From assembly GCF_900095795.1 (NCBI RefSeq), contig NZ_LT608328.1:1357001-1421000 (forward strand): a stretch of DNA of 64,000 nucleotides, written 5' to 3'. The notes beneath the pieces were generated by a model. That model saw nothing but the letters and a program-made list of their open reading frames with translations, made no database searches and had not been told where the DNA came from. Positions 33,391-49,421 of this stretch are shown one piece after another; positions within the stretch are counted from its first letter, which is position 1, and each line of letters opens with the position of its first letter. The stretch is from Petrimonas mucosa (GTDB lineage: Bacteria; Bacteroidota; Bacteroidia; Bacteroidales; Dysgonomonadaceae). The position numbers were made by a program, and so were the translations under genes.

Positions 33391-34419
33391 TTAGAATAGA
33401 TTTGGAATAATCAACGAGAATATGAGGACAGCCATTCCTACGGCAAGGAATGCGACAGCCTTGCTGCCTGCACCTTTCCACTCTTTCAGGATAATACCCC
33501 AGACATTGCTGAAAACAACGTTCAAGGACATCAGGATACTCCATGAGAATGCCATCATCACGCTTCCCGGCTCAAAGAAACTCTGTCCCATGCCCAGTCC
33601 GAAGAATTGGGAATACCAGAGCAATCCGGCCAGGGCACAGAAGAGAAGGTTGTTGATAAGTATCGGTTTGGATGTCTTTCCGATCTCTCCTGTCGTCTTG
33701 TTTTTCCGGTTCATGTAGAGACAGTAAACCAGATTGGTGAAAAAGCCGCCAATTGTAACCAGAAGCGTTACGGGATTCTGGGCAAAGAGCTCCTTCGATC
33801 CAGCAGCAATCGCGGCTTCCTTGATCGGGATGCCAGCGCTTAGACCCAAGCTGAAGCAGGCACTCATTACTCCGGCAAAAAGTGCGATGAACAACCCTTT
33901 TTTCAGGGCGAAATCCTTGATGGCTTTCTTGCGCTCCTCTTCCGACATGTTTCTCGAACGAAGACTGCCGGCATACCCAACCAGGGCAATTCCCAGCAGG
34001 GTCACAACAACAGCCAGCAGCAGAACCAGCCCCTTCGGTGAGAAGAGGTCGTCACCGGCAATAACAGCCGGGATCAAGGTTCCAAAGGCCGCACAAGTTC
34101 CCAAGGCAACAGACTGGCCAAGCGCGATACCCAGGTATCGCATGCTGAGCCCGAATGTCAACCCGCCAATTCCCCAGAGGATGCCGTAACCTACAGACTG
34201 CAGTGCAGCTCCTGCATTTGCCGAGTAGACCGCGATCAACTCGGGAAGGGAGATTGCCATGAAAGCCCCCAGGAGAGGAAAGACGAGCCATGCAAAGATA
34301 CCCTGTACAAGCCAGAAGTTCTCCCATGACCACTCCTTGACCTTGTTGATAGGAACGTAGGAGCTCGACTGCCCCATACTTCCTATCGCTATAATGATCA
34401 ATCCAATAATGGTATTCAT
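33391..34419 (-). CDS. rhaT: L-rhamnose/proton symporter
   Basis: The 342-residue inner-membrane protein has ten predicted helices. It matches the RhaT family, with GSMGQSSSYVPINKVKEWSWENFWLVQGIFAW at the N-terminus (split here by helix 1) and GGLTFGLSMRYLGIALGQSVALG in the middle. It imports L-rhamnose with a proton. It is the third gene of rhaB-rhaA-rhaT, beginning 5 bases after rhaA. Confidence 0.93.
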   Translation of the reverse strand: MNTIIGLIIIAIGSMGQSSSYVPINKVKEWSWENFWLVQGIFAWLVFPLLGAFMAISLPELIAVYSANAGAALQSVGYGILWGIGGLTFGLSMRYLGIALGQSVALGTCAAFGTLIPAVIAGDDLFSPKGLVLLLAVVVTLLGIALVGYAGSLRSRNMSEEERKKAIKDFALKKGLFIALFAGVMSACFSLGLSAGIPIKEAAIAAGSKELFAQNPVTLLVTIGGFFTNLVYCLYMNRKNKTTGEIGKTSKPILINNLLFCALAGLLWYSQFFGLGMGQSFFEPGSVMMAFSWSILMSLNVVFSNVWGIILKEWKGAGSKAVAFLAVGMAVLIFSLIIPNLF

Positions 34420-35708: not shown

Positions 35709-37196
35709 TTATAGTTCTTTGTATACGTTCAAGTATTCTGAGTATTTCTCTTTCCAGAGGTCGGTCTCCTGGGGTTCGAACCTGGCAAGGTCAACGGAGT
35801 TTCTGACCATCTGACGCATCTCGCTCTTGTCTGCCACCACTCCCGACGCTTTTGCCTGGAGCAGGATGTTGCCGATCGCCGTCGCTTCCGAAGGGCCTGC
35901 TACCACGGTCGTTCCGATAGCATTGGCTGTAAATTGGTTCAACATCTTGTTTTGCGATCCGCCTCCGATGATGTGTAGCGTCTCGATCGGGAAATCTGCC
36001 AGCTCCTTCAGGTTGTTGAGCACCTGCTTATACCTGAATGCAAGACTTTCGTAGATACAGCGGGCAATTTCTCCAATGGTCTGCGGGACATGCTGCCCTG
36101 TCTCTCTGCAGTAGTTCCGGATCTCATTGATCATCGATTCCGGACTGGCGAAACAGGAGGCATCAGGATTGATGAAACAACGGAAAGGTTCCGACTGGGT
36201 AGCCTCGCGAACGATGTCGTCGTACGAGATGTTTCGCTCCAGGGTCCACTCTTTCTTGCACTGTTCGATCAACCACATGCCACAGATATTCTTCAGCAAA
36301 CGGATCGAGCCGTCGGCACCACCTTCGTTCGTAAAGTTCAACGAGAAGGTCTCTTCGGTAACCACCGGTTCTTTCGACTCGATTCCCATCAGCGACCATG
36401 TTCCGGAGCTCAGGTAGGCAAAATGCTCGTTCTCGGCAGGGGTAGCAATGACGGCAGATGCGGTGTCGTGGCCGGCTACGGCTACTACTGGAACAGCCCC
36501 CATATGGGTCTCTCTTTGTACCGACTCGGAGAGGGTTCCTATCTCTGTTCCCGGGAAAACGATCGGTGCAAACTTCTCTTCCGACAGGCCCAATGTCTGC
36601 AACAGCTCGTTGTCGAACGAGCGGGTGAACGGATTTAACAATTGGGAGGTAGAGGCAATGGTATACTCCGTTACCATTTTATTGGTCAGCAGGTAAGAGA
36701 GTGCATCGGGCATGAACAGAAACTTGTCCGTGATGGGATAGATCGGATTGTTCTCCTCCTGTTGCGTGAACAGCTGGAAAAGTGAGTTGAAATTCATGAT
36801 CTGAATTCCGGTTTTCATGTAAGTCTCCTTTTTAGAGAGAACCTTGCTGAAAAACTTTTCGGGAGCCGAAAAGGTGCGGGTGTCGCGATAACTGTACGGC
36901 ATGCGGAGAGGTTCTCCATCTGTGCCGAATGATACGAAATCTACTCCCCAGGTATCGATACCGATAGATGCAATTTCGATGCCCTGGAGTTGAATCTCTT
37001 TTAAGGATTTCACGATTTCCCGGTAAAGATGAAACAGGTCCCAAAATAGTCTGCCATTAACTTCGATGATCGGATTAGCAAAACGGTTCACTTCTTTCAT
37101 TTCCAATTTGTTGTTTCGGATCGTTCCCAGAATGGCACGTCCGCTGGATGCTCCTAAGTCAATAGCTAAAAATGAGGTTAATTTGCTTTCATTCAT
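35709..37196 (-). CDS. rhaB: Rhamnulokinase (FGGY family)
   Basis: The kinase converts L-rhamnulose to L-rhamnulose-1-phosphate with ATP. The 495-residue protein has the FGGY N-terminal ATPase fold (FLAIDLGASSGRAILG), IGIDTWGVDFVSFG, VAGHDTASAV, YLSSGTWSLMGIE, and the C-terminal LHIIGGGSQNKMLNQFTANAIG. It is the first gene of rhaBAT. A -7-like box (TACTTTTG on the minus strand, 37244-37237) lies 41 bases upstream of its ATG. No rhaD aldolase follows in this operon. Confidence 0.95.
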   Translation of the reverse strand: MNESKLTSFLAIDLGASSGRAILGTIRNNKLEMKEVNRFANPIIEVNGRLFWDLFHLYREIVKSLKEIQLQGIEIASIGIDTWGVDFVSFGTDGEPLRMPYSYRDTRTFSAPEKFFSKVLSKKETYMKTGIQIMNFNSLFQLFTQQEENNPIYPITDKFLFMPDALSYLLTNKMVTEYTIASTSQLLNPFTRSFDNELLQTLGLSEEKFAPIVFPGTEIGTLSESVQRETHMGAVPVVAVAGHDTASAVIATPAENEHFAYLSSGTWSLMGIESKEPVVTEETFSLNFTNEGGADGSIRLLKNICGMWLIEQCKKEWTLERNISYDDIVREATQSEPFRCFINPDASCFASPESMINEIRNYCRETGQHVPQTIGEIARCIYESLAFRYKQVLNNLKELADFPIETLHIIGGGSQNKMLNQFTANAIGTTVVAGPSEATAIGNILLQAKASGVVADKSEMRQMVRNSVDLARFEPQETDLWKEKYSEYLNVYKEL

Positions 37197-37565: not shown

Positions 37566-37597
37566 TTTGGATACTTTAGCTAATATGGGTACTTTTG
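37566..37597 (+). promoter_or_regulatory. Promoter of the E2-E3-E1-aldolase operon
   Basis: TTTG (37566-37569), 20 bases, then TACTTTTG (37590-37597) match the Bacteroidota consensus exactly. The E2 start codon lies 65 bases downstream. Confidence 0.75.
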
Positions 37598-37662: not shown

Positions 37663-39012
37663 ATGGCAATAGTAGTTATTATGCCCAAGCAAGGGCAATC
37701 GGTTGAGAGTTGTATCATTGGCTCAGTAAACAAGAAAAAAGGAGATACTGTGAAAAAGGGGGATGTTCTTTTCTCGTATGAAACGGATAAGGCATCCTTT
37801 GAGGAGGAATCTCCGGTAGACGGAGTCGTACTCGAATGTTTTTACCAGGAAGGAGACGAAGTTCCCGTATTGGAAAACATGATGATTATTGGTGAACCTG
37901 GCGAGGATTATTCGGCCTTGCTGCAGGGCAGTCGGGGTGCAGAGGTGGAGAGTCGGAACGAGGCGCCGGTTGTTGCCAAGGAGGAAAGTGTGAAAACCGA
38001 AGCGAAGGGTGCCGTATCCCAGCCTCAACCCGATTCGCGGAGCGAAGAGATCGGAACACGCTTTATCTCTCCCCGGGCCAAAAATCTGGCTTCGAAAGAG
38101 GTGATCGACACTGCTGCGATAGCCGGATCCGGACCGCATGGACGCATCATCGAAAAGGATGTGCAGGCAGCCCTGGAGAATCGCCCCAAGATGACACCTC
38201 TGGCCAAGAAGATTGCCTCAGAGGAAAACCTTCAGCCGCAATCGGGTACCGGATTGGCCGGAACAGCCCGTTCCGTGGACCTGGTTCCGCCTGCAAATAC
38301 AGTCTATGCCAACGACTATGAGGACAAGAAGCTCTCCAATATGAGAAAACTGATTGCGCGGGCCATGCATGCTTCGCTGCAGAACTCAGCACAGCTTACA
38401 CATCACCTCGGAGCAGATGCACGCCGCATCCTCGAACTTCGCAAAAAGGCGAAAGCAGATTTGGAGGCCGGAAAGATCTCGGCAAACATCACCCTCAACG
38501 ATATGGTCTGTTTTGCCGTTATCCGGGCACTCAAGAAGTTCCCCAACGTCAATTCCCATTTTCTGGGTGAGAGCATGCGCCTCTTTAATAAGGTGCATCT
38601 CGGCGTGGCCGTCGATACCGAGCGGGGGTTGATGGTTCCGGTTGTGAAGAATGCCGATGACCTGTCGATCGTGGGACTTTCAAACCAGTTGAAAGAGGTG
38701 GCCAACGCCTGCAAGACAGGCAGTGTGAATCCCGATATCCTTTCGGCTGAAGCGGGCTCGTTCACGGTCTCCAACCTCGGCAATTACGGAGTGGAGATTT
38801 TCACACCCGTGATCAATTTGCCGCAATCGGCCATACTGGGTGTAAACACCATTGTTCCGCGTCCGAAGGATCTGGGTGACGGGGTCTATGCGTTTGTTCC
38901 ATACATCGGCTTGAGCCTTACCTACGATCACCGTGCACTGGATGGCGGGGAGGCGACTCGTTTCCTGAAGCAGATCGCTCTGGAGATCGAGAATCTTGAA
39001 TTTGAATTCTAA
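37663..39012 (+). CDS. 2-oxoacid dehydrogenase E2, dihydrolipoamide acyltransferase
   Basis: This is the core of the multienzyme complex; it takes an acyl group from E1 on a swinging lipoyl arm and passes it to CoA. The 449-residue protein has an N-terminal lipoyl domain (about 1-78) with the modified Lys as K43 in ETDKASFE. An acidic/basic linker follows, then a peripheral-subunit-binding domain (about 132-170, FISPRAKNLASKEV). The catalytic domain (about 225-449) ends with YDHRALDGG, where H423 and D427 are the active site. It is the first gene of the operon. Which acyl group it carries cannot be read from the sequence; acetyl, branched-chain and acetoin types are all possible. Confidence 0.92.
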   Translation: MAIVVIMPKQGQSVESCIIGSVNKKKGDTVKKGDVLFSYETDKASFEEESPVDGVVLECFYQEGDEVPVLENMMIIGEPGEDYSALLQGSRGAEVESRNEAPVVAKEESVKTEAKGAVSQPQPDSRSEEIGTRFISPRAKNLASKEVIDTAAIAGSGPHGRIIEKDVQAALENRPKMTPLAKKIASEENLQPQSGTGLAGTARSVDLVPPANTVYANDYEDKKLSNMRKLIARAMHASLQNSAQLTHHLGADARRILELRKKAKADLEAGKISANITLNDMVCFAVIRALKKFPNVNSHFLGESMRLFNKVHLGVAVDTERGLMVPVVKNADDLSIVGLSNQLKEVANACKTGSVNPDILSAEAGSFTVSNLGNYGVEIFTPVINLPQSAILGVNTIVPRPKDLGDGVYAFVPYIGLSLTYDHRALDGGEATRFLKQIALEIENLEFEF

Positions 39013-39023
39013 TCTAAAAAAAG

Positions 39024-40385
39024 ATGATAATGTACGACTTATTGATCATCGGGGGGGGGCCAGCCGGTTATGTGGCTGCCGAACGAGCAGGACATAAAGG
39101 ATTGAAAGTGGCGCTGTTCGAGAAAAAGGAGCTGGGAGGCGTTTGCCTTAACGAGGGGTGTATTCCCACCAAAACCATGCTCTATAGTGCCAAGACCTAC
39201 GAGAATGCCCTCCATGGAGAGAAATATGGAGTTTTTGCGGAAACCGTTCGTTTTGAATACGACAAGATTGTCTCCCGCAAAAATAAAGTAGTACGTAAGC
39301 TGGTCGCCGGAGTCAAATCCAAGATGAAGGTCAACGGTGTTACTGTCGTTGAGGGAGAGGCCATGATTAAGGGCCGAAGTTCCAACGGAATCGAGGTGGT
39401 CTGCAACGGCGAACAATATCTGGGAGCCAACCTGCTGATCTGTACCGGATCCGAGGCATCGGTACCCCCCATTCCCGGATTGAGGGAGGCTGGCGATATT
39501 ATCCTCACCAACCGGGAGATCCTCGATCTGAAAGAGCAGCCCAAGAAGCTTGTAGTGATCGGTGGCGGTGTTATCGGGATGGAGTTTGCCAGCTTTTTCA
39601 ACAGCTTGGGATCGGATGTGACGGTGATCGAGATGCTGCCCGAGATCCTTGGGAACAACGATTACGAAATCTCCGCCCTTTCACGCGATCTCTTTACCAA
39701 AAAGGGAATTGTGTTTCACCTGAATGCAAAGGTGGTACAGATAGATGGAAACAAGGTGATTTTCGAGAAGGGAGGCGAAACGCATACCGTTGAGGGAGAC
39801 AAGATACTGCTGAGCGTTGGACGCCGTCCGGTTACCAAAGGTTTCGGTCTTGAAAACCTTGGTGTGGAACTGGAGCGGGGTGGCATCAAGGTGGACGAGA
39901 AGATGCGCACCAACGTTCCCAACGTTTTTGCTGCGGGCGACGTGACCGGATTCTCGCTGTTGGCCCATACCGCCAGCCGTGAAGGTGAAGTTGTGGTGAA
40001 CAACCTCACCGGCAGGGAGGATGTGATGCGTTACAACGCCATTCCGGGAGTTGTCTATATCAATCCGGAGATTGCAGGCGTGGGAGAGACCGAGGAGAGT
40101 GCCAAAGCCAAGGGAATTGCCTATAAGGTGGCCAAACTGCCCATGGCCTATGCTGGACGTTTTGTTGCCGAAAACGAAGGCGGTACCGGTCTCTGCAAGG
40201 TGCTCGTCGGCGAGAAGTACGGCGAAGTGCTTGGTGTCCACATGTTGGGAAACCCCAGCAGTGAGATGATCTATGGCGCATGTATGGCGATTGAACAGGA
40301 AATGACGCTGGAAGAGATGAAAGAGGTAGTATTCCCCCATCCGACGGTCAGCGAAATATTCAAGGAGGTTGTTTTTGGATTCTGA
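39024..40385 (+). CDS. lpdA: Dihydrolipoyl dehydrogenase (E3)
   Basis: E3 re-oxidises dihydrolipoamide and reduces NAD+. The 453-residue flavoprotein has the FAD-binding start LLIIGGGPAGYVAAERAG, the redox disulfide C41-x4-C46 in GGVCLNEGCIPTK, the NAD-binding VVIGGGVIGMEFA, the FAD segment NVFAAGDVTG, and the C-terminal HPTVSE with the catalytic His/Glu. Two ATG codons (39024 and 39030) could start it. It begins 11 bases after E2, so the complex is built from one transcript. Confidence 0.95.
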   Translation: MIMYDLLIIGGGPAGYVAAERAGHKGLKVALFEKKELGGVCLNEGCIPTKTMLYSAKTYENALHGEKYGVFAETVRFEYDKIVSRKNKVVRKLVAGVKSKMKVNGVTVVEGEAMIKGRSSNGIEVVCNGEQYLGANLLICTGSEASVPPIPGLREAGDIILTNREILDLKEQPKKLVVIGGGVIGMEFASFFNSLGSDVTVIEMLPEILGNNDYEISALSRDLFTKKGIVFHLNAKVVQIDGNKVIFEKGGETHTVEGDKILLSVGRRPVTKGFGLENLGVELERGGIKVDEKMRTNVPNVFAAGDVTGFSLLAHTASREGEVVVNNLTGREDVMRYNAIPGVVYINPEIAGVGETEESAKAKGIAYKVAKLPMAYAGRFVAENEGGTGLCKVLVGEKYGEVLGVHMLGNPSSEMIYGACMAIEQEMTLEEMKEVVFPHPTVSEIFKEVVFGF

Positions 40386-40450
40386 TGCCAGACAACCTGC
40401 TTATAAAAAGAACAACTGACGATTAAAATCGATCGAAACATTAAAAAGAT

Positions 40451-42910
40451 ATGCCTAAAAGTCAATTTATCGACCCGGCTGAAGCCCGTAAACCGGGCGT
40501 TGTGGAATTTCAGCCAATTCCGGTTAATCAGTATCAAAAAACGGTAAAGGAGGAGCGTGGAAACTTTACCGACGAAGAACTAAAAGCCATCTACCACGAC
40601 ATGGTGCTCATCCGTGAGTTTGAAACCATGCTCAATCTTATCAAGACCAAAGGGGAATACAACGGTGTGGCGTACAATCACCCCGGACCGGCCCACTTGT
40701 CCATCGGACAGGAATCGGCCGCCGTGGGTATGGCCTGGACCCTAACTGTGGATGATTTTATCTTCGGCAGCCACCGTTCGCACGGTGAGATCCTTGCCAA
40801 AGGGATGTCTGCCATTCACAAGCTTTCCGACGAAGAGCTGATGAAGATCATGCAGGAGTTTTTCGACGGAACAGTATTGAAGATCGTTCAGAAAGATTTC
40901 AATGGTACGACCAAGGAGCTGGCACGCCGATTCCTGGTTTATGGAACATTGGCCGAAATATTTGCCAGGGAGACTGGCTTCAACAAGGGGCTGGGAGGTT
41001 CAATGCACGCCTTCTTCACCCCCTTCGGTGTTTATCCCAACAACGCCATTGTGGGCGGTTCGGGAGATATTGCAGTGGGTGCCGCACTGTACAAAAAAGT
41101 CAATCGCAAGCCCGGCCTGGTGGTTGCCAATATTGGAGATGCATCGATGGCTTGCGGACCCGTTTGGGAGGGGATCACCTTCGCCGCCATGGACCAGTTC
41201 AGGGAGCTCTGGGAAGGTGAGATGCAAGGTGGTCTTCCGGTCATTATCAACATCATGAACAACCAGTACGGAATGGGTGGCCAGACCTGTGGCGAGACCA
41301 TGGGATACGGCATCGCTGCACGTATCGGTGCCGGTGTCAATGATGAGCAGATGCATGCAGAGCGGGTAGACGGCTACAATCCGCTGGCGGTAATCGACGC
41401 CTACAGGCGCAAACGCAAAGTGATCGAGGAGAAGAAGGGACCGGTACTGCTGGATGTGTTGACCTACCGTTACAGCGGACACTCTCCTTCCGACGCTTCA
41501 TCATACCGTACCAAGGAAGAGGTGGAAGCTTGGGAAAGACAGGATTGTATCGCATCGTTCGGCAAGCAGTTGCTGGAAGCAGGTGTTGCCACCCAGGACG
41601 AGCTGGATGCCGTCTGGAGCGATGTGAAGGCCCTTACCCACGAAATGTTCCTCAAGTCGATCGACGATGAGATCTCGCCTCGGATGAAAAATCCCGACGT
41701 GATTGGAGAGATGATGTTCTCCAACGGTTCGGTCGACAGCTTCTCCGACGCCAAACCCGATGTGTTGATGCCGTTGGAGGAGAACTCCCGTGTGAAGAAG
41801 ATTGCCACCAAGGAGCGTTTTGCCTTCGATGCCGACGGCAAACCCTTCAGCAAGATGAAGCAGTTCCAGCTGCGCGATGCCATCTTCGAAGCTATCATGG
41901 ATAGATTCTACAAGGATGCTTCCCTTATCGCATACGGTGAAGAGAACCGCGACTGGGGTGGTGCCTTTGCCGTTTACGGCGGAATGACCGAGGCGCTTCC
42001 CTACCATCGCCTGTTCAACTCGCCCATCTCCGAGGCCTCCATTGTTGGAACGGCCATCGGTTATGCAATGTGTGGCGGCAGGGTAATTCCCGAGATCATG
42101 TACTGCGACTTCCTCGGACGTTGTGGCGACGAGGTGTTCAATCAACTTCCCAAATGGCAGGCAATGAGTGGAAACGTGCTGAAGATGCCGGTTGTCCTCC
42201 GCGTCTCCGTGGGTTCGAAATATGGTGCACAGCACTCGCAGGACTGGACATCGCTGGTGGCACATATTCCGGGTATCAAGGTCTGCTTCCCGGTAACACC
42301 CTACGATGCCAAGGGATTGATGAATGCCGCATTGCAAGGGACCGACCCGGTCATCTTCTTTGAGAGCCAACGCATATACGATATCGGCGAGCAATTCCAC
42401 AAGGGAGGTGTTCCAACCGGATATTACGAGATACCGATCGGAGAACCCGATGTGAAGAGAGAGGGTAAGGACATTACGTTCCTGACCATCGGACATACAC
42501 TTTATCCCGCCCTCCAGGCTGCAAAAGAGCTGGAGACGGTTTACGGCATGAGTGCCGAAGTGATCGATGCCCGGTCGCTGGTACCTTTCAACTACGAAAA
42601 AGTGATCGCCTCGGTGAAGAAGACCGGCAAGATCATTGTTGCCGGTGATGCAACCGCCCGGGGTTCGTTCCTGAACGACCTGGCTGCAAACATCAGTTCG
42701 CTCTGCTTCGACTACCTGGATGCTCCTGTCGGCGTGCTTGGATCGCGTAACTGGATCACTCCGGCACACGAACTTGAAAGTGCGTTCTTCCCGCAGCCAA
42801 GCTGGTTTATCGATATGATCCACGAACGCATTCAGCCGTTGAACGGATATATCCCCGGAGAGAACTTTACCGATGCCGAAATGATAAGGAGAGCGAAAAA
42901 AGGAGTTTGA
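40451..42910 (+). CDS. 2-oxoacid dehydrogenase E1, fused alpha and beta subunits
   Basis: E1 uses thiamine diphosphate to decarboxylate a 2-oxoacid, or to cleave an acetoin-type ketol, and hands the acyl group to E2. In this 819-residue protein the alpha part (about 1-420) and beta part (about 475-819) are joined in one chain. The alpha part has FIFGSHRSHGEI, GKGLGGSMHAF-like NKGLGGSMHAF, and the thiamine motif GDASMACG to NIMNNQYG. The beta part has YGEENRDWGGAFAVYGG, FNSPISEASIVGTAIGYAM and PVVLRVSVGSKYGAQHSQDW. Fused E1 proteins occur in Bacteroidota, usually annotated only as a 2-oxoacid dehydrogenase. The substrate is unknown, and the aldolase neighbours argue for a sugar-derived compound. 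Confidence 0.92.
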   Translation: MPKSQFIDPAEARKPGVVEFQPIPVNQYQKTVKEERGNFTDEELKAIYHDMVLIREFETMLNLIKTKGEYNGVAYNHPGPAHLSIGQESAAVGMAWTLTVDDFIFGSHRSHGEILAKGMSAIHKLSDEELMKIMQEFFDGTVLKIVQKDFNGTTKELARRFLVYGTLAEIFARETGFNKGLGGSMHAFFTPFGVYPNNAIVGGSGDIAVGAALYKKVNRKPGLVVANIGDASMACGPVWEGITFAAMDQFRELWEGEMQGGLPVIINIMNNQYGMGGQTCGETMGYGIAARIGAGVNDEQMHAERVDGYNPLAVIDAYRRKRKVIEEKKGPVLLDVLTYRYSGHSPSDASSYRTKEEVEAWERQDCIASFGKQLLEAGVATQDELDAVWSDVKALTHEMFLKSIDDEISPRMKNPDVIGEMMFSNGSVDSFSDAKPDVLMPLEENSRVKKIATKERFAFDADGKPFSKMKQFQLRDAIFEAIMDRFYKDASLIAYGEENRDWGGAFAVYGGMTEALPYHRLFNSPISEASIVGTAIGYAMCGGRVIPEIMYCDFLGRCGDEVFNQLPKWQAMSGNVLKMPVVLRVSVGSKYGAQHSQDWTSLVAHIPGIKVCFPVTPYDAKGLMNAALQGTDPVIFFESQRIYDIGEQFHKGGVPTGYYEIPIGEPDVKREGKDITFLTIGHTLYPALQAAKELETVYGMSAEVIDARSLVPFNYEKVIASVKKTGKIIVAGDATARGSFLNDLAANISSLCFDYLDAPVGVLGSRNWITPAHELESAFFPQPSWFIDMIHERIQPLNGYIPGENFTDAEMIRRAKKGV

Positions 42911-42912
42911 TC

Positions 42913-44079
42913 ATGAGTTTTCCAAAAGTAAATGCCCACCTGCATACTCCATTTTCCTTCAGTGCATTTTGCGATATCAGCGATGCGCTTGACCGGGCTG
43001 TTGCAGAGGAGGTGAAGGCGGTAGGTATCAACGACTTTTATACTGCCGAAGGTTACGGAGAGTGGGCGGAAGGGTGCCGCCAGCGCGCTCTTTACCCGCT
43101 TTTCGGTATCGAATTTATCAGCCTCAACGAAGAGGATCAGAAGGCCGGCCTGCGGGTAAATGATCCCGGAAATCCGGGACGGACCTATATCAGCGGGAAG
43201 GGGTTGTCACACCCCTTCAGGCTGGATGAGCCCTATGCTTCGCAATTGGCGGACGTGCGGGCCGAAGCCAACAAGCAGGTGGAGGCGATGTGTGAAAAGT
43301 TGAACGGAATTCTTGCAGAGAAGCAGGCCGGCTTTACCCTCGATATCGGGTGGATCAAGGAGAACCTGACCCGGGGATCCGTTCGGGAGCGTCACCTGGC
43401 GAAAGCCTTGCGCCTGAAGGTCTATGAACAGTGCAGTGGTGATTCCGACCGGATAAAAGTGCTGCTGAAAGAACTATTCGACGGAAAGGAGCTGCGTTCG
43501 GATACCGACAACGTTGCCGGTGTAGAGAATGAGATCCGTGGAAACTTGCTGAAGGCGGGCGGAGCGGCTTTCGTGCCCGAAACTGCCGAGGCTTTCCTCC
43601 CGATGCAGACGGTCTGCAAGATCATCTTGGCGGCCGGTGGAATACCCACCTATCCCTTCCTGGCAGATGATGCCCAGGGTAACTACACCGATTTCGAGCG
43701 CGACCTCGAAGGTGTGGCCAAACAGTTGACCGATCGTGGATTCCATTCGGTGGAGTTTATTACTACCCGCAACGACGTGAAGTTGCTGGAGAGATATGCC
43801 ACCTATCTCCACGATCAGGGTTTTGTGGTCACTTTTGGAAGTGAACACAACTCTCCGGTGATGGAGCCTGTAGAACTCTTTGCCCGTAACCAGACCCCTT
43901 TGACCGAAAAGCTGATGCAGATCAATTACGAGGGAGCCTGTGTAGTGGCAGCCCATCAGCATCTGGTCGCGCAGGGACTGAGCGGCTATGTCGATACAGA
44001 TGGGAATGCAGACCGTACGCAGAGGAGCGAGTTCGTGAAATTGGGTGATGAATTAATCAGAAACAGTGCAGGAAATTAA
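42913..44079 (+). CDS. PHP-domain metal-dependent hydrolase, unknown substrate
   Basis: The start is ATG 42913 (MSFPKVNAHLHTPFSF), preceded by AGGAG at 42901-42905; a TTG at 42907 adds only two residues. The 388-residue protein has the PHP fold. The HLH motif (H9, H11) lies at the N-terminus, GINDFYTAEGY supplies an Asp, FGIEF a Glu, and FGSEHNSP near the C-terminus a late His. A helical insertion of about 180 residues separates the early and late metal motifs. PHP proteins are usually phosphoesterases, so a sugar-phosphate or cyclic-phosphate hydrolase is plausible. It starts 2 bases after E1 and 5 bases before the aldolase fusion. I do not recognise a characterised homologue. Confidence 0.8.
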   Translation: MSFPKVNAHLHTPFSFSAFCDISDALDRAVAEEVKAVGINDFYTAEGYGEWAEGCRQRALYPLFGIEFISLNEEDQKAGLRVNDPGNPGRTYISGKGLSHPFRLDEPYASQLADVRAEANKQVEAMCEKLNGILAEKQAGFTLDIGWIKENLTRGSVRERHLAKALRLKVYEQCSGDSDRIKVLLKELFDGKELRSDTDNVAGVENEIRGNLLKAGGAAFVPETAEAFLPMQTVCKIILAAGGIPTYPFLADDAQGNYTDFERDLEGVAKQLTDRGFHSVEFITTRNDVKLLERYATYLHDQGFVVTFGSEHNSPVMEPVELFARNQTPLTEKLMQINYEGACVVAAHQHLVAQGLSGYVDTDGNADRTQRSEFVKLGDELIRNSAGN

Positions 44080-44084
44080 CAGAG

Positions 44085-46046
44085 ATGAAAGAGATTCAGG
44101 AGTTAATAGCCATTTCGCAGTTCTACGGCAAGGATAGCCGTTTTGTCATTGCGGGAGGTGGAAATACATCCTATAAAAATAACGAGAAGATATGGGTCAA
44201 GGCCAGCGGTTCTGCGCTGGCCACCATCACTGAAGATGGATTTGCCGTGCTCGACAGGTCGCTGCTCAACCCGATGTCGGACAAGCAGTATAGCAGAGAT
44301 CCGGCCGAGCGGGAGGAGCAGGTGAAGAACGATCTTGCCGCAGCCACCCTCACCAAGGGAAAACGGCCGTCGGTAGAGACCTCCATGCACAACGTGATTG
44401 GTTATGCCTATGTAGTGCATCTGCATCCGACGGTTGTGAACGGATTGATGTGCGCAGCCGATGCCGAATCGGCCCTGAAACGGCTTTTCGGTGAAAAGGT
44501 GTTGTTTGTGGAGTATACCGATCCGGGATATCTCCTCTTCAAGAAGGTGGACGAGAAGATCAAGGAGTACCGCAATAGGTTCAATGAGGAGTCGCAGGTG
44601 ATCTGGTTGCAGAACCACGGTATCTTTGTGGCGGCAGACAGTACTGAAGAGATCAGGTTGATATACGACTCGATAGTTGAAACGCTCGGCAAGGCCGTGA
44701 CCACCCCTCTGCCCCAGGAGGAGAGGGAAGTATCGCGTCAAGCGTGCGAAATTCTGCCGGCCGTCAGAATGATGCTTTCCGACGACAGCCTCAAGACCTT
44801 GAAAGTCCGCAACAACGGGCTGATCGGGTATTTTTGCGACACCCCCGAAAACCAGTCGGCCATTTCGAGACCCTTTACGCCCGATGCAATTGTCTACTGC
44901 AAGTCCAATTATCTCTTCTTCAACGAAGATACGGCCGAGCAGGTCATTGCCAGTGCAAAGGAGTCGATACCCGCCTTTACCGCCAAGTTTGGTTACCAGC
45001 CGAAAGTCCTGCTGATAAAAGGGGTTGGGCTGGTTGCAGTGGGTGACAATGCCCGGCAGTGCGACACCATCCTCGATGTGTTTGAAGATGCCATGAAGAT
45101 AGCATTTCTGGCTCGCTCTTTTGGCGGTGAGCATCCGATGACCCAGGCACAGATCGACTTTATCGACAACTGGGAAGTGGAGAACTACCGTCGCAGTGTG
45201 GCCGCCGGAAATGTTTCCGGCAGGGCCGTAAATAAAACCATCGTGGTAACGGGTGCTGCCCAGGGGTTCGGTGAAGGTATTGCCGAATGCCTGTTGCGCG
45301 AGGGAGCCAATATTGTCGTGGCAGACCTGAATGAGGAGGTGGGCAGGAAGACGGCCGAAAGATTCAACGGTCTTACAAAAAGTAACCGGGCCATTTTCGT
45401 GAAGACGAACGTTTCAGACATTCCAAGCCTGGAGAACCTGGTACATGAGACGGTATGCCATTTCGGTGGAGTGGACTGTTTTGTCAGCAATGCCGGTGTG
45501 TTGCGGGCAGGCGGACTGGAAGAGATGACACCCGAGAATTTCGATTTTGTCACCCGGATCAACTACAATGCCTACTTCTACTGCGCAAAAGTGGTCAGCA
45601 AGGTGATGAAGCTGCAGACTAAATATGCCTCGGAAGATTACTACGCCGATATCATCCAGATAAATTCAAAATCGGGACTTCGCGGCAGCAAGGCCAATTT
45701 TGCCTACGCCGGTGGAAAGTTCGGAGGAATCGGTCTTACACAGTCGTTTGCATTGGAGCTGGCACCCTTCCGGATAAAGGTCAACTCGATCTGTCCCGGC
45801 AACTTCTATGAAGGGCCGCTTTGGAGCGATCCACAGAACGGGTTGTTCGTACAGTACCTGAATGCAGGAAAAGTTCCCGGTGCAAAAACTATTGAAGAGG
45901 TAAAAGCGTTCTATCTTGCACAGGTGCCGATGCGCAAAGGGTGTACTCCCAACGACGTCTCCAAGGGGGTGTTGTACCTGATGGAGCAATGCGGCGAAAC
46001 CGGCCAGGCTCTCCCCATAACCGGAGGGCAGGTGATGTTGAATTGA
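44085..46046 (+). CDS. Bifunctional class II aldolase / short-chain dehydrogenase, RhaEW-like
   Basis: The 653-residue fusion has an N-terminal class II aldolase domain (about 1-350) with complete zinc and acid residues: E98 in VETSMHN, H112 and H114 in HLHP, H178 in NHGIF. The C-terminal short-chain dehydrogenase domain (about 383-653) has TGAAQGFGEG (389-398), SNAGVL, S528 and the Y541-x3-K545 pair. This is the architecture of RhaEW, which cleaves L-rhamnulose-1-phosphate to dihydroxyacetone phosphate and L-lactaldehyde and then oxidises the aldehyde. The divergent rha operon lacks an aldolase, so this gene may fill that step. Other phosphoketoses are possible, and the dehydrogenase substrate is not proven. 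Confidence 0.85.
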   Translation: MKEIQELIAISQFYGKDSRFVIAGGGNTSYKNNEKIWVKASGSALATITEDGFAVLDRSLLNPMSDKQYSRDPAEREEQVKNDLAAATLTKGKRPSVETSMHNVIGYAYVVHLHPTVVNGLMCAADAESALKRLFGEKVLFVEYTDPGYLLFKKVDEKIKEYRNRFNEESQVIWLQNHGIFVAADSTEEIRLIYDSIVETLGKAVTTPLPQEEREVSRQACEILPAVRMMLSDDSLKTLKVRNNGLIGYFCDTPENQSAISRPFTPDAIVYCKSNYLFFNEDTAEQVIASAKESIPAFTAKFGYQPKVLLIKGVGLVAVGDNARQCDTILDVFEDAMKIAFLARSFGGEHPMTQAQIDFIDNWEVENYRRSVAAGNVSGRAVNKTIVVTGAAQGFGEGIAECLLREGANIVVADLNEEVGRKTAERFNGLTKSNRAIFVKTNVSDIPSLENLVHETVCHFGGVDCFVSNAGVLRAGGLEEMTPENFDFVTRINYNAYFYCAKVVSKVMKLQTKYASEDYYADIIQINSKSGLRGSKANFAYAGGKFGGIGLTQSFALELAPFRIKVNSICPGNFYEGPLWSDPQNGLFVQYLNAGKVPGAKTIEEVKAFYLAQVPMRKGCTPNDVSKGVLYLMEQCGETGQALPITGGQVMLN

Positions 46047-46064
46047 TTAAATTAGAAAAAACAG

Positions 46065-47348
46065 ATGAAAACCAGAGCAGTCCGTTTGTACGGCAAAAAA
46101 GATCTCAGGCTGGAAGAGTTTGAATTGCCGGCCATCAAGGACGATGAAATTCTCGCCAAAGTAGTATCCGATTCATTGTGTATGTCGTCATACAAGGCAT
46201 CGTCGCAAGGTGCCGACCACAAACGGATTCCTGATAATGTGGCCGAATACCCCATCATCATCGGTCATGAATTCTCCGGTGAGCTGCTGGAAGTGGGCAG
46301 CAAGTGGGCAGACAAGTTCAAGGCGGGCGACAAATTTTCCATCCAACCGGCATTGTACTACGAAAATGGGCCTGTTGGCATCCTGAGTGCTCCCGGTTAC
46401 AGTTACCCCTATATCGGCGGGGATGCAACCTACGTGATAATTCCCAACGAGGTGATGGAGCAAGATTGCCTGTTGGTTTACCATGGTGAAGGGTACTATC
46501 CCGCATCGCTTTCCGAGCCACTTTCATGTGTTATCGGTGCCATGCACGCCAATTACCATACCACACCCGGCAGCTACCAGCACAAGATGGAGATTGTAGA
46601 CGGCGGTAAAATGGCAATTCTTGCAGGCGTCGGACCTATGGGACTTGCCGCCATCAATTTCGTGCTTCGTCGCGAAGAGGTAAAACCCTCCCTGCTTGTA
46701 GTGACAGATATCGACCAGTCGCGTCTCGACCGTGCCGCCTCCATCTATACCGTTGAATTTGCCGCTTCCCGGGGCATCGACCTGAAGTATGTCAACACCG
46801 GAAAGATGGAGAATCCTGTTGAAGAGCTGAAGGCAATCAGTGGCGGTACAGGTTTCGACGATGTATTTGTGTTTGCCCCCGTGAGACCAGTTGTGGAGCA
46901 GGGTGACGCTATCCTTGCCTTCGACGGCTGTCTCAACTTCTTTGCAGGTCCTGACAATCCCAACTTCAGCGCCATGTTGAATTTCTACAATGTGCATTAT
47001 GCTTATACACATATCGTCGGCACCAGTGGCGGAAACAAGGATGATATGGTAGAGGCGCTGGAAATCATGAGTAAAGGGTTAGATCCCGCAGGACTGGTAA
47101 CCCATATTGGCGGATTGAATGCGGTTGCCGAGGCGACCAACAACCTGCCACATATTCCCGGAGGCAAGAAGTTGATCTATACGCACGTGGAGATGCCGTT
47201 GACACCGATCTCAGATTTTGCAAAACTGGGTGAAACGGACGGTTTCTTCCGTGTACTTGCTGAAATCTGCGACAGGCACAACGGATTGTGGAGTGTGGAA
47301 GCAGAGACTTACCTGCTGTCGAACCACCCTTCACTGCAGAAGAGGTAA
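46065..47348 (+). CDS. Zinc-dependent medium-chain dehydrogenase, SorE-like
   Basis: The 427-residue protein is a medium-chain alcohol dehydrogenase. Catalytic zinc ligands are visible as Cys in SLCMSSYK and His/Glu in IIGHEFSG. The four-Cys structural zinc lobe is absent. The nucleotide-binding turn is LAGVGPMGLAAINFV. It resembles L-sorbose-1-phosphate reductase and sugar-alcohol-phosphate dehydrogenases, which interconvert a ketose phosphate and an alditol phosphate. The C-terminal stretch THVEMPLTPISDFAKLGE is typical of this branch. It lies 18 bases after the aldolase fusion and 24 bases before the double aldolase. Substrate unknown. Confidence 0.82.
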   Translation: MKTRAVRLYGKKDLRLEEFELPAIKDDEILAKVVSDSLCMSSYKASSQGADHKRIPDNVAEYPIIIGHEFSGELLEVGSKWADKFKAGDKFSIQPALYYENGPVGILSAPGYSYPYIGGDATYVIIPNEVMEQDCLLVYHGEGYYPASLSEPLSCVIGAMHANYHTTPGSYQHKMEIVDGGKMAILAGVGPMGLAAINFVLRREEVKPSLLVVTDIDQSRLDRAASIYTVEFAASRGIDLKYVNTGKMENPVEELKAISGGTGFDDVFVFAPVRPVVEQGDAILAFDGCLNFFAGPDNPNFSAMLNFYNVHYAYTHIVGTSGGNKDDMVEALEIMSKGLDPAGLVTHIGGLNAVAEATNNLPHIPGGKKLIYTHVEMPLTPISDFAKLGETDGFFRVLAEICDRHNGLWSVEAETYLLSNHPSLQKR

Positions 47349-47372
47349 CCCATAACCCTAAAATCATATCAC

Positions 47373-48671
47373 ATGAAACAGTTGGACGTTCAATTAATGC
47401 ATCCGGTAGAGCAGATCAACATCATTATCGGAAGAATCTATCGAAGCGGAATGACCACCACTTCCGGTGGAAACATCTCAATCCGTGACGATAATGGTGA
47501 TATCTGGATCACGCCGTCGGGTGTAGACAAGGGAAACCTTACCACAAAGGACATCATGCTCGTAAAGAGGGATGGCTCCATAATCGGTCCCCACAGACCC
47601 TCTTCCGAGTATCCTTTCCACCGGGCTATCTACGAGGCCCGTCCCGACATCAGAGCCATCATACATGCGCATCCGCCCGCACTGGTTGCTTTCAGCATCG
47701 CCGGAACGGTTCCCGACACCAAGATTGTTCCTCAAGCCCACAACGTGTGCGGTGAGATCGGTTTTGCCCCATACGGCACACCCGGAAGTGAGGATCTTGG
47801 GGAAAAGATCGCCAAGGTGTTTCAAGATAAGCGTTATCGGGCAGTGATTATGGAGAATCACGGCGTTGTGCTGGGCGGGTCGGACATGATGGATGCCTAC
47901 CAGCGGTTCGAGACCCTGGAGTTTTGCTGCCGCACCATTGTAAATGCCGGAAAACTCGGAAAGGTGAACTATCTGACCGATCAGCAGGTCAACAGCTATG
48001 TGAACCATATCCCCAAGAACATCGCTCATTTCATGGATGTGGATTATCCCTCCGACGAGCGCGCACTGCGTACCGAGATGGTCAACATCATCCGTCGCGC
48101 CTGCGATCAGGGATTGATGATATCTACCTACGGAACGGTTAGTGTCCGCTGGCGCAACGACGACTTCCTGATCACGCCGCGCGACGTGGCCCGTTGGGAT
48201 ATCATGCCCAGCGACATCGTGCAGATACGAAACGGCATGGCCGAAGCAGGGAAGACTCCCAGCCGCTCAGTGGCGCTTCACCAACGGATCTATCAGCTCA
48301 ACCCGCACATCAACTCCATTATCTGTACTCAACCGATCAACCTGATGGCACATGCCGTTAGCGGGACCAAATTCGACGTGCGGACGATCCCCGAAAGCTG
48401 GATCTTCCTGCAGGATGTTCCCTCCATCCCGTTCGGGTTGATCTACCACGAGATTGAAGATGTGGCGAAGATGTTCAAGAAGAACCGGGTGATCATGGTA
48501 GAGAATGATGGCGTTTTTGTAACGGGAGACAAGTTGCTCACCACTTTCGATTACCTGGAGGTTGCCGAGTTCTCGGCCAACTCGCTTGTCATGGCGTCTG
48601 CTATCGGTCCGTTGAAGCCAATAGGAGACAAGGAGATTGATGATCTTCGAATTGCCTTTAACGTTGGATAG
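47373..48671 (+). CDS. Double class II aldolase/adducin protein with degenerate second half
   Basis: The 432-residue protein consists of two class II aldolase-type domains (about 1-215 and 225-432). The first is complete: TSGGNIS, E79 in SSEYPFH, H98-A-H100 in IIHAHP, and H163 in ENHGVVLGG. In the second the same positions hold S299, C318, Q320 and D379, so it cannot bind zinc. The N-terminal half probably cleaves or epimerises a small ketose phosphate, and the C-terminal half may be structural. Single-domain relatives are about half this length. It lies 24 bases after the Zn-dehydrogenase and overlaps the lipoate ligase. Confidence 0.88.
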   Translation: MKQLDVQLMHPVEQINIIIGRIYRSGMTTTSGGNISIRDDNGDIWITPSGVDKGNLTTKDIMLVKRDGSIIGPHRPSSEYPFHRAIYEARPDIRAIIHAHPPALVAFSIAGTVPDTKIVPQAHNVCGEIGFAPYGTPGSEDLGEKIAKVFQDKRYRAVIMENHGVVLGGSDMMDAYQRFETLEFCCRTIVNAGKLGKVNYLTDQQVNSYVNHIPKNIAHFMDVDYPSDERALRTEMVNIIRRACDQGLMISTYGTVSVRWRNDDFLITPRDVARWDIMPSDIVQIRNGMAEAGKTPSRSVALHQRIYQLNPHINSIICTQPINLMAHAVSGTKFDVRTIPESWIFLQDVPSIPFGLIYHEIEDVAKMFKKNRVIMVENDGVFVTGDKLLTTFDYLEVAEFSANSLVMASAIGPLKPIGDKEIDDLRIAFNVG

Positions 48672-49413
48672 GTTCATTCATAACCCGAAACTTCTTTTTT
48701 CCCGTTCAACTTTGCCGGCCTTCAACCTGGCGCTGGAAGAGTATCTTTTCTCCTTATCGGGAGAGTATCTTCTGCTTTATGTGAATCAACCGTGCGTTGT
48801 GCTCGGTTACAACCAGGCGGTGCTGAACGAGGTGGATCTCGATTATTGCATCGAGAACGATATCCGTATCATCCGGCGGCTGTCGGGTGGGGGAGCGGTC
48901 TACCACGATCAGGGAAATCTGAACTATACATTTATAACCGATAAAGGAGAAACTCCCGTCAGCGGCGAGTTTCTCCTTCCTGTTATAGCCGTGCTAGGCC
49001 AACTGGGTATCCCGGTCGAGGCCGGTAAGCGAAAAGATCTCTGGTTGCCCGGAGGATTCAAGGTGTCGGGAACCGCATCGCACGTCTCCAAGGGGCGTGT
49101 CCTGCATCATGGAACCCTGCTTTACGAAACCGACCTCGAACAGCTGCACCGCTCGCTGAATCCCGAGAGGAGGGATCTTGTCGCCAAGGCGACCGCCTCG
49201 GTCCCCAGTCCCGTAAAGAACATATCTGCATTTCTGAAGGAGGAGAGGATAGATCCGCCTTCTTTCACCCAATTTGCAGAGCGGTTTGCCACTCAAATGA
49301 TGAGACATCTCGAGATCGACGGCATAACCCCGTTGTCTCCCGCCGATGAGGAGAGGATCGAGGTATTGCGACGGAGCAAATATGCACAACGCGAGTGGAA
49401 CTACAGGATGTAG
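48640..49413 (+). CDS. lplA: Lipoate-protein ligase, LplA-like
   Basis: The enzyme activates lipoate with ATP and attaches it to E2 lysines. The start ATG 48640 has AGGAG at 48631-48635 and lies inside the end of the aldolase gene (32-base overlap). The 257-residue protein has the ligase signature RRLSGGGAVYHDQGNLNYTF, here about 79-98, and the catalytic K141 in GFKVSGTASHVSKGRVLHHG. It is shorter than E. coli LplA (about 338) and lacks most of the C-terminal accessory domain. Being last in the operon, it probably lipoylates K43 of the E2 encoded by the first gene. Confidence 0.9.
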   Translation: MIFELPLTLDRFIHNPKLLFSRSTLPAFNLALEEYLFSLSGEYLLLYVNQPCVVLGYNQAVLNEVDLDYCIENDIRIIRRLSGGGAVYHDQGNLNYTFITDKGETPVSGEFLLPVIAVLGQLGIPVEAGKRKDLWLPGGFKVSGTASHVSKGRVLHHGTLLYETDLEQLHRSLNPERRDLVAKATASVPSPVKNISAFLKEERIDPPSFTQFAERFATQMMRHLEIDGITPLSPADEERIEVLRRSKYAQREWNYRM

Positions 49414-49421
49414 CTCCACTC
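49393..49421. terminator. Hairpin at the end of the dehydrogenase operon
   Basis: GAGTGGA (49393-49399) pairs with TCCACTC (49415-49421). An inner CTAC/GTAG pair and loop AGGAT follow after one mismatch. It spans the ligase stop codon and lies before a convergent gene. There is no long T-tract, so it may act as a weak two-way terminator or a 3'-end stabiliser. Confidence 0.45.

Follow-up and report, generated by a model that had tools for sequence, protein, structure and literature searches.

An eight-gene operon in the window, the whole 64,000-nucleotide stretch of DNA analysed here, may encode a conserved lower pathway for the 6-deoxyhexoses L-rhamnose and L-fucose. The keto group of a 6-deoxyketose-1-phosphate would be shifted along the chain and a lipoamide-linked complex would then cleave the product to acetyl-CoA and a tetrose-4-phosphate, bypassing lactaldehyde. 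We put the probability of this reading at about 0.5. The gene set, its linkage, the co-occurrence, the family memberships and the conserved residues are computed, while the reactions are proposed. A search for the pathway, its genes and its intermediates returned no description in the literature listings.

Among the main sugars of mucus and of the polysaccharides of plants and algae are L-fucose and L-rhamnose, and the Bacteroidales are among the main organisms that degrade them. According to textbooks, the lower half of the sugar is turned anaerobically into lactaldehyde and from there into 1,2-propanediol or propionate. If the proposed pathway is true, Bacteroidales have a new way to use rhamnose and fucose, via a complex that normally acts on pyruvate-like acids, and the lower half becomes acetyl-CoA and a pentose-pathway intermediate. 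The predicted products and energy yield would change for roughly a seventh of the sampled Bacteroidales genomes (43 of 295).

The operon and the adjoining rhamnose genes

All eight open reading frames of the operon (37663-49413) are intact and on the + strand, and their domain names are backed by Pfam and NCBIfam profiles. This agrees with the sequence-only reading, which had described an operon of E1, E2 and E3 with a PHP protein, aldolases, a zinc dehydrogenase (ZnDH) and a lipoate ligase. The gaps between the genes are, in operon order, 11, 65, -4, 5, 18, 24 and -35 bases. The features are:

32357..33544, - strand: AraC-type regulator, rhaR-like (name from reading)
33391..34419, - strand: rhaT, L-rhamnose transporter-like (name from reading and context)
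34425..35684, - strand: rhaA, L-rhamnose isomerase (TIGR01748, 607 bits, cut-off 585 exceeded)
35709..37196, - strand: rhaK, rhamnulokinase-type kinase (name from reading and context)
37567..37597, + strand: promoter-like element of Bacteroidota type, 5' of the operon (consensus match; conserved stretch)
37663..39012, + strand: E2, with lipoyl (Pfam: PF00364), E3-binding (Pfam: PF02817) and 2-oxoacid-dehydrogenase acyltransferase (Pfam: PF00198) domains
39024..40385, + strand: E3, dihydrolipoyl dehydrogenase (TIGR01350, 492 bits, cut-off 408.8 exceeded)
40451..42910, + strand: fused E1 alpha-beta, 819 aa, thiamine-diphosphate dependent (Pfam: PF00676, PF02779, PF02780)
42907..44079, + strand: PHP-superfamily protein, 390 aa (Pfam: PF02811, 28.7 bits, cut-off 26.4)
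44085..46046, + strand: aldolase-SDR, a RhaE-like class II aldolase fused to a short-chain dehydrogenase (Pfam: PF00596 and PF00106)
46065..47348, + strand: ZnDH, zinc dehydrogenase of the SorE (L-sorbose-1-phosphate reductase)/YggP family (identity to annotated genes)
47373..48671, + strand: double aldolase with a FucA-like domain 1 and a degenerate domain 2 (Pfam: PF00596, twice)
48637..49413, + strand: lipoate-protein ligase (Pfam: PF21948, 193 bits; TIGR00545, 230 bits, below the cut-off of 280)
49393..49421, no strand: hairpin at the operon end, between convergent genes (12 pairs, one mismatch, no T-run)

The PHP gene starts either at a TTG overlapping E1 or at an alternative ATG at 42913. 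The gene order of the operon, whose conservation the earlier note proposed to check, is found again in relatives. We rejected a chance neighbourhood, because the order is repeated in relatives and the genes co-occur across genomes. In the 80 loci compared, an E1 of the operon's kind is present in 63, an E2 in 50 and an E3 in 30.

The operon lies back to back with rhaK-rhaA-rhaT, and an AraC-type regulator gene is also adjacent. The earlier note proposed looking for co-occurrence with rhaBAT or another sugar locus and was silent on these divergent neighbours. A kinase is found in the same position as rhaK at six other loci (L004, L005, L007, L008, L013 and L015). The true start of the regulator is probably further in, because its reading frame overlaps rhaT.

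The promoter-like element, TTG, 20 bases, TACTTTTG, was called with what we take to be the Bacteroidota promoter consensus. It falls inside a stretch conserved in four close relatives, and the 466-base gap contains two + strand matches to the motif TAnnTTTG, where simple shuffles would give 0.4. The sigma-70 scan showed no excess over shuffles (5 found, 11.2 expected) and neither did the terminator scan (10 found, 12.6 expected). The sequence-only reading had likewise named a consensus promoter in front and a hairpin at the end.

Distribution across Bacteroidales

We searched a sample of 295 Bacteroidales genomes and found E1 in 43, PHP in 40 and ZnDH in 41 of them. All three are present in 38 genomes, PHP together with E1 in 39 and any of the three in 44, and they co-occur tightly even in genomes where the genes are unlinked. 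The genomes are related and the counts ignore shared ancestry, so the Fisher values overstate independence. A search at the level of the phylum matched only the window's own genome, among 99.

rhaA or fucI is found in 39 of the 43 genomes with E1 versus 58 of the 252 without it, the four E1 genomes with neither being G136, G169, G248 and G294. By our count, sugar genes lie in or beside the stretches around E1 in only 9 of the 43 genomes. The module takes the place of the known route, in that a RhaD-like aldolase and a curated lactaldehyde reductase FucO are rarer where it is present. RhaD-like matches, counted at E 1e-20, occur in 3 of 36 rhaA-positive genomes with E1 versus 28 of 34 without E1; this count is a rough marker, since every match in the order falls short of the curated RhaD cut-off and 40 of the 225 rhaA-negative genomes have such a match too. 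FucO at the curated level is found in 0 of 34 genomes with the module versus 17 of 46 without.

Two genomes with the module bear on the aldolases. G238 is 99% complete, carries fucI and fucK upstream of the module and has no PF00596 match in its genome. G118, a fucI genome, has one PF00596 match, which by its size and score we take for araD. Three module-free fucI genomes (G008, G019 and G023) also have no FucA-sized protein beyond the araD-like and RhaD-like ones, which means that the lack of FucA by itself does not set the module apart. In ten loci (L013, L075-L078, L080, L084, L089, L098 and L102; three examined in full) the short SDR protein leaves no room for the aldolase half, which appears to be dispensable. 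The aldolase half tracks rhaA, being found in 26 of 26 rhaA-positive and 1 of 4 rhaA-negative module genomes, where 'RhaE-like' was assigned by frame length and score. The earlier note had an aldolase product entering the complex. As G238 and G118 show no suitable class II aldolase, this cannot be general, and the evidence favours the intact deoxyketose phosphate, after a keto shift, as the putative substrate of the complex.

The enzymes of the operon

The fused E1 stays below the cut-off of both curated models of pyruvate dehydrogenase (PDH) E1, TIGR03182 (190 of 394 bits) and NF006667 (226 of 321 bits). The catalytic His of E1 beta and the GHS motif of E1 alpha have a catalytic role; in the alignment, H595 of the E1 is aligned with a His in 11 of 11 ordinary rows and the GHS motif is present. 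In the tree, the E1 groups with fused E1s of Rhizobium, Agrobacterium and Pleomorphomonas (support 100/100), and three acetoin (AcoA/AcoB) rows form their own clade apart from it (100/100). Only these two groupings were used from the tree, which holds one misassembled row (L025_own, with antisense frames, left out of later alignments) and flagged long branches for L025, L161, L156, L157 and L158. The alphaproteobacterial operons hold sugar kinases or transporters, together with an AcoC-like acetyltransferase that is below the model cut-off.

Residues R500, Y551, R557, K590 and R641 of the E1 are found in 14 of 14 clade rows, versus 1, 1, 0, 0 and 2 of 11 ordinary E1 rows, which are hand-picked plasmid hits and one gene of the own genome, labelled by record annotation. 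Four of the five match columns of Escherichia coli DXS: R347, Y392, R398 and R478 correspond to R500, Y551, R557 and R641. R420 of DXS, its third pocket residue, corresponds to V587. According to excerpts of PMC11019550, Y392 and R478 are residues of the GAP pocket, and excerpts of PMC3424233 describe E. coli PDH E1 mutants that permit DXP production.

The genome contains three other kinds of E1 gene and a second copy of the operon's kind. We therefore rejected the idea that the E1 is the cell's ordinary pyruvate or branched-chain dehydrogenase, as it also sits in a separate clade. This supports the earlier proposal of sugar dissimilation with a dedicated complex, as do the linkage to rhamnose genes and the conserved order. 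The second E2-E3-E1 copy is part of a different sugar operon without SDR, ZnDH and PHP, so this E1 alone does not imply a keto shift.

Over 98% of its length, the ZnDH has 51-53% identity to three genes with the annotation sorE, and it is 51% identical to one annotated yggP. The earlier link to sorbose and alditols was half right, in that the ZnDH belongs to the sorbose-1-phosphate reductase family. The SDR part aligns with E. coli SrlD across 273 columns at 33% identity, and its best single-domain NCBIfam match, below cut-off, is sorbitol-6-phosphate dehydrogenase. The E2 has a PDH-type E2 as its best NCBIfam match, also below cut-off. The aldolase domain of the aldolase-SDR retains the catalytic Glu and the zinc His (equivalents of E73, H92, H94 and H155). 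The double aldolase has two PF00596 domains, as previously described, but only domain 1 is likely to be an enzyme, because domain 2 retains neither the catalytic Glu nor any of the three zinc His; we therefore rejected two working aldolases in this protein.

The AlphaFold model of the PHP protein (pLDDT 81) resembles RNase AM and 2yb1-type PHP phosphoesterases, with Foldseek E-values of 2e-9 to 2e-8, yet TM-scores of just 0.47-0.49 on the query. H11, H13, D43, E69, H163 and H314 are invariant in 18 close rows. TDHD and AHP are defining PHP motifs, and F44 and Y249 replace their usual His. The best hit of the sequence against the PDB had an E-value of 0.078, and plasmid and phage searches gave no match.

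The proposed pathway, its alternatives and known systems

Judging by the linked rhaA/rhaK or fucI/fucK, isomerase and kinase would form L-rhamnulose-1-P or L-fuculose-1-P. In the L-sorbose route, L-sorbose-1-P is converted to glucitol-6-P and on to fructose-6-P. By analogy, the SorE-type ZnDH would reduce the C2 keto group to give a 6-deoxyhexitol-1-phosphate, and the SrlD-like SDR would oxidise the hydroxyl adjoining the methyl group, a net redox-neutral shift to a 1-deoxyketose-6-phosphate. The fused E1 with thiamine diphosphate would attack CH3-CO and cleave the bond to C3, comparable to acetoin dehydrogenase and to DXP synthase run in reverse. E2, which the lipoate ligase (LplA) probably lipoylates, and E3 would transfer the acetyl group to CoA and form NADH, leaving a tetrose-4-phosphate. 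For rhamnose, the class II aldolase domains would be an extra, probably interconverting L-rhamnulose-1-P and its C4 epimer L-fuculose-1-P, directly or via DHAP and lactaldehyde; this is the weakest step. The PHP protein, encoded next to E1, may act on the tetrose phosphate, or be a sugar-phosphate epimerase, isomerase or phosphatase. A transaldolase-like gene, named by reading, follows the double aldolase in L018 and L022. It counts against the pathway that, by our own stereochemical reading, L-fuculose-1-P would give D-threose-4-P, which is no standard intermediate, and that the PHP protein is not accounted for.

Tentatively, the complex could represent a new class of lipoamide-linked enzyme, a 1-deoxyketose-phosphate dehydrogenase (acetyl-transferring) that cleaves a phosphosugar and not a 2-oxoacid. 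The SorE/SDR keto shift would then give a lactaldehyde-free L-fucose and L-rhamnose pathway in many Bacteroidales, and the related Rhizobiales E1s would do the same for other deoxy sugars. If so, the 2-oxoacid dehydrogenase family extends to phosphosugar substrates, and the fused E1, whose database record carries only the label alpha-ketoacid dehydrogenase, gains a substrate.

The plain aldolase route is open in the window, as its aldolase domains retain the catalytic residues (E73, H92, H94 and H155 equivalents). The RhaE-like and FucA-like domains would release DHAP and L-lactaldehyde from the ketose-1-P, the SDR would form L-lactate as in RhaEW, and after oxidation of the lactate to pyruvate E1-E2-E3 would form acetyl-CoA as a dedicated pyruvate dehydrogenase. 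The nearness of the E2 to the PDH type fits this, as do excerpts of PMC3870299, in which both activities of the RhaEW aldolase-SDR architecture are demonstrated in vitro and some rha regulons include lactate dehydrogenase genes. We consider it unlikely, however: the aldolase-SDR reaches 235 bits against a RhaEW (TIGR02632) cut-off of 568, the SDR protein has no room for the aldolase part in the ten loci named above, G238 and G118 show no suitable class II aldolase, and no lactate dehydrogenase is among the listed family matches of the eight proteins. The SorE-family ZnDH and the PHP protein would have no job, and the E1 is of a separate clade with DXS-like residues.

SorE and SDR would keep a role if cleavage of the 1-deoxyketose-6-P fell instead to an aldolase, of the FSA/transaldolase type or another, that releases hydroxyacetone and glyceraldehyde-3-P; the complex would then act on hydroxyacetone or methylglyoxal. 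FSA enzymes accept hydroxyacetone, and in L075, L076, L077, L078 and L124 the module or its ZnDH has a transaldolase/FSA-like gene of 220 aa, named by reading, as a neighbour. This is improbable, as 5 of the 80 compared loci have this gene cluster and the window operon lacks it, and phosphate-type E1 residues would be pointless for hydroxyacetone. Just as improbable is a complex that shares the regulation of the sugar genes but stands outside their carbon route, its substrate being a 2-oxoacid from another branch (2-oxobutyrate, for instance, or an oxoacid derived from sugar). The E1 fold, the 2-oxoacid dehydrogenase type of E2 and E3 and the presence of a second such complex in another sugar operon agree with it. 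The tight co-occurrence with PHP and ZnDH, even when the genes are unlinked, speaks against it, as do the alphaproteobacterial relatives in sugar operons with acetoin-type acetyltransferases.

Among known systems, the L-sorbose pathway shifts a keto group along a hexitol phosphate, between its two ends. It shares both enzyme families, SorE and sorbitol-6-phosphate dehydrogenase, with the operon, where the proposed substrates are 6-deoxyketose-1-phosphates, the SDR is fused to an aldolase and no PTS gene is present. The RhaEW L-rhamnose pathway, as described in excerpts of Rodionova et al. 2013 (PMC3870299), also has a class II aldolase-SDR fusion that replaces RhaD in rha loci, with rhaA and rhamnulokinase upstream. 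Unlike it, the operon has a SorE-type ZnDH, a PHP protein and a lipoamide complex, its aldolase-SDR is far below the RhaEW cut-off, and in fucose-type loci of the module the aldolase half is either gone or separate.

The proposed E1 reaction would resemble that of acetoin dehydrogenase (AcoABC-Lpd), in which a thiamine-dependent E1 cleaves CH3-CO-CHOH-R to acetyl-CoA and an aldehyde, and the alphaproteobacterial relatives of the E1 pair with an AcoC-like E2. In contrast to acetoin dehydrogenase, the operon E1 is fused and in a separate clade, its E2 is of PDH type and its neighbours are deoxyhexose genes. DXS makes the C2-C3 bond from pyruvate, without a lipoamide partner. It has a related thiamine-binding half and the shared Arg/Tyr columns (R347, Y392, R398, R478), but the operon complex would cleave this bond and oxidise the acetyl unit, and R420 is not in common. 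With the pyruvate and branched-chain 2-oxoacid dehydrogenase complexes the operon shares the E1-E2-E3 architecture and lipoylation, and it differs from them in the separate E1 clade, in R557 and K590 (0 of 11 ordinary rows) and in its sugar context.

Operon conservation and neighbouring sugar genes

The genome carrying the window is 3.72 Mb in size and consists of one contig (C1, NZ_LT608328.1), of which the window covers C1:1357001-1421000. The sequence-only reading had described an eight-gene operon, and ORF reading and family searches recovered the domains it named and showed the genes to be intact, collinear and close-set.

Window 37663-49413, + strand: E2, E3, fused E1, PHP-superfamily protein (PHP), class II aldolase (RhaE-like) half joined to a short-chain dehydrogenase (SDR), zinc dehydrogenase (ZnDH), tandem class II aldolase (double aldolase), lipoate-protein ligase (LplA)

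The genes rhaK, rhaA, rhaT and an AraC-type regulator diverge from this operon (rhaA identified by family search, the others by reading). The rhaK-E2 intergenic region is kept in four close relatives (loci L004, L005, L007 and L008), apart from some 145 bases inserted in the window, and promoter-like elements of the Bacteroidota type are found on both of its strands. A transposase-like ORF (name by reading) is located a few kb from the rha locus, at window positions 29574-30677.

When named genome records were scanned with PHP, 21 loci were recovered, many of them ending early at contig ends, with relatives in records of Petrimonas, Proteiniphilum, Fermentimonas, Dysgonamonadaceae and various Bacteroidales. 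The expectation that the gene neighbourhood recurs in relatives was borne out, as L004, L005, L007 and L008 have the complete layout of rhaT-rhaA-rhaK followed by E2-E3-E1-PHP-aldolase/SDR-ZnDH-double aldolase-LplA. E1 is found in all 21 loci, ahead of PHP in 20 and behind it in L015, in which the E2-E3-E1 block is relocated to the opposite operon end, which argues for functional linkage and not inherited order. Neither a double aldolase nor an aldolase half was found in L013, and L012 showed no ZnDH.

Out of 295 Bacteroidales genomes drawn, 43 have E1, 41 ZnDH and 40 PHP; at least one of the three is present in 44 genomes, E1 and PHP in 39 and all three together in 38. In 31 of the 43 E1 genomes, PHP follows E1 on the same strand at a distance of less than 5 kb (with a gap below 300 bases in 22); in eight it is placed elsewhere or differently oriented, and in four it was not found. 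At an E-value of 1e-150, E1 was not found in 98 further genomes drawn from the class and phylum, all outside the window's order. Two genomes of family f74, G178 and G074, have the PHP gene alone near PNPase-, SecDF- and ABC-transporter-like genes (L079:8973-10097 and L083:9612-10745, names by reading), their E1 and ZnDH genes being on different contigs, which suggests that the module can be dispersed.

Co-occurrence with a sugar locus, also raised from the sequence, holds genome-wide, with rhaA or fucI in 39 of the 43 E1 genomes versus 58 of the 252 without E1. By our own count, rha or fuc genes are found within or beside the fetched E1 stretches in nine of the 43 genomes (G000, G230, G143, G164, G257, G238, G007, G125 and G131). 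In several genomes the module adjoins fucose genes, in place of or besides rhamnose genes. In G238 and G257, fucI, fucK and a fucP-like gene (by reading) are positioned upstream of the module. In G125 the module has a kinase and fucI downstream; upstream of it are rhaA, a free-standing aldolase half and a kinase. The G007 module lies between a group of rhaA, rhaT and an aldolase half and a pair formed by a kinase and an alpha-L-fucosidase. A GntR-type regulator (by reading) was detected in 28 of the 80 compared loci and none was seen in the window's operon.

RhaD-like matches, counted at an E-value of 1e-20 and never above the curated cut-off, divide the 70 rhaA genomes: 3 of the 36 that carry E1 have one, versus 28 of the 34 that do not; 40 of the 225 genomes without rhaA have such a match as well. 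A lactaldehyde reductase above its curated cut-off is found in none of 34 module genomes versus 17 of 46 other genomes with rhaA or fucI, and a related protein, at 1e-80, in seven of the 34. The module thus tends to take the place of the usual route through lactaldehyde.

Aldolases, PHP and the second complex

The aldolase appears not to be the core of the module. In ten loci the SDR protein has 353-452 amino acids, leaving no room for a class II aldolase domain, and the three short SDR proteins that were read retain an aldolase-domain tail. Three genomes (G007, G125 and G223) have rhamnose loci that encode the aldolase half as its own gene close to rhaA. We scanned 30 module genomes with PF00596, calling the RhaE-like half from frame length and score, and found it in all 26 genomes with rhaA versus one of the four without. 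G238 and G118 have the module and fucI and no rhaA; there were no PF00596 matches in G238, and the sole match in G118, a genome 90% complete, was taken for araD. As neither shows a suitable class II aldolase, fucose can apparently be handled without FucA. Two points weaken this: the module-free fucI genomes G008, G019 and G023 likewise showed no FucA-sized protein besides araD-like and RhaD-like ones, and an FSA-like gene adjoins the module in G238. One domain of the double aldolase is dead.

PHP is linked to E1 by co-occurrence. The predicted structure of PHP (pLDDT 81) is similar, at a low TM-score, to RNase AM and 2yb1-type PHP phosphoesterases, and two of the usual metal-binding histidines are replaced. 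By our own derivation the fucose route would yield D-threose-4-phosphate and would need a further isomerase. Transaldolase-like genes (by reading) adjoin the module in some lineages, which is weakly compatible with a tetrose phosphate.

The genome also carries a second E2-E3-E1 copy, 71, 81 and 87% identical to the first.

C1:1515568-1529401 (L037:2569-14001 and L038:1-2401): second E2-E3-E1 operon

In this other sugar operon, an FGGY kinase, an SSS symporter, an AraA-like isomerase, an amidohydrolase, an LsrF/ADH-synthase-like class I aldolase (below cut-offs), a SIS protein and an archaeal-type TIM are followed by E2-E3-E1 and a Gfo/Idh dehydrogenase. The keto shift proposed for the first operon does not explain it.

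The proposed keto shift and cleavage by E1

In the sorbose pathway, a SorE-type and a sorbitol-6-phosphate dehydrogenase shift the keto group between the ends of a hexitol phosphate. Three plasmid genes annotated as sorE (L-sorbose-1-phosphate reductase) share 51-53% identity with ZnDH across 98% of the ZnDH sequence, and one annotated as yggP shares 51%. The SDR domain shares 33% identity with SrlD, the sorbitol-6-phosphate dehydrogenase of E. coli, and its best single-domain NCBIfam match is the sorbitol-6-phosphate dehydrogenase family, below the cut-off. By our derivation, a sorbose-type shift would convert L-fuculose-1-phosphate via L-fucitol phosphate to 1-deoxy-D-tagatose-6-phosphate. 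According to PMC2962223, L-fucitol is 1-deoxy-D-galactitol and can be oxidised enzymatically to 1-deoxy-D-tagatose. A hexitol-phosphate dehydrogenase-like gene immediately follows E1 in L090, L091, L110 and L115; the family search, run for L090, gave mannitol-1-phosphate 5-dehydrogenase as top model, below the cut-off, which fits a hexitol phosphate intermediate. In L090, L091 and L110 two HAD-type genes come next, with an aldo-keto-reductase-like gene close by (names by reading).

Acetoin dehydrogenase cleaves a CH3-CO-CHOH grouping, and the same grouping is present in a 1-deoxyketose. Outside the order, the closest E1 relatives found, at 53-54% identity, are fused E1s encoded on plasmids of Rhizobium, Agrobacterium and Pleomorphomonas; their neighbours are sugar transporters, sugar or xylulose kinases and an acetyltransferase with acetoin dehydrogenase E2 as top model (153-202 bits, cut-off 307); the Rhizobium locus also has a psicose-3-epimerase-like protein. 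Module and rhizobial E1s form a single clade (100/100), separate from the acetoin, PDH-like and branched-chain rows. The tree includes the misassembled row L025_own and flagged long branches (L025, L161, L156, L157 and L158), and we relied on this grouping and the acetoin clade only.

In the thiamine-binding half of E1, every one of the 14 clade rows has R500, Y551, R557, K590 and R641, which occur in 1, 1, 0, 0 and 2 of 11 ordinary E1 rows, respectively. At each position at most one of some 60 module E1 sequences, counting fragments, deviates. R347, Y392, R398 and R478 of E. coli DXP synthase (DXPS) occupy four of the five columns. PMC11019550 gives Y392, R420 and R478 as the glyceraldehyde-3-phosphate pocket of DXPS; the R420 column, however, is V587 in the window's E1 and does not match. 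DXP can be produced in vivo with mutants of the pyruvate dehydrogenase E1 of E. coli (PMC3424233), so in chemical terms a deoxyketose phosphate is not far from pyruvate.

Comparison with known systems

Lipoamide complexes are also found in other sugar contexts. On a Shinella (L153:2604-8772) and a Sinorhizobium plasmid (L159:2612-9917), under a sugar-binding regulator, an oxidoreductase stands in front of E1 alpha, E1 beta, E2 and lpdA. The L153 oxidoreductase scores 705 bits against PDB 3upl/3upy, the Brucella DXR-like enzyme, and these genes may form a route feeding DXP or a relative into the complex. On a Clostridioides difficile plasmid (L152:1-8927), a further complex of E1 alpha, E1 beta, E2 and lpdA comes after GH43, a GPH-type sugar symporter and a sugar-binding regulator.

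In searches of the open-access literature, no paper was found describing the gene set, the pathway or its intermediates. Rodionova et al. (PMC3870299), in a survey of rhamnose utilisation, describe RhaEW, Bacteroidetes included; 'pyruvate dehydrogenase' is absent as a term from the main text. The putative deoxyhexose pathway, in which a sorbose-type keto shift would be joined to an acetoin-dehydrogenase-like complex, therefore looks like a new combination of elements of known kinds.
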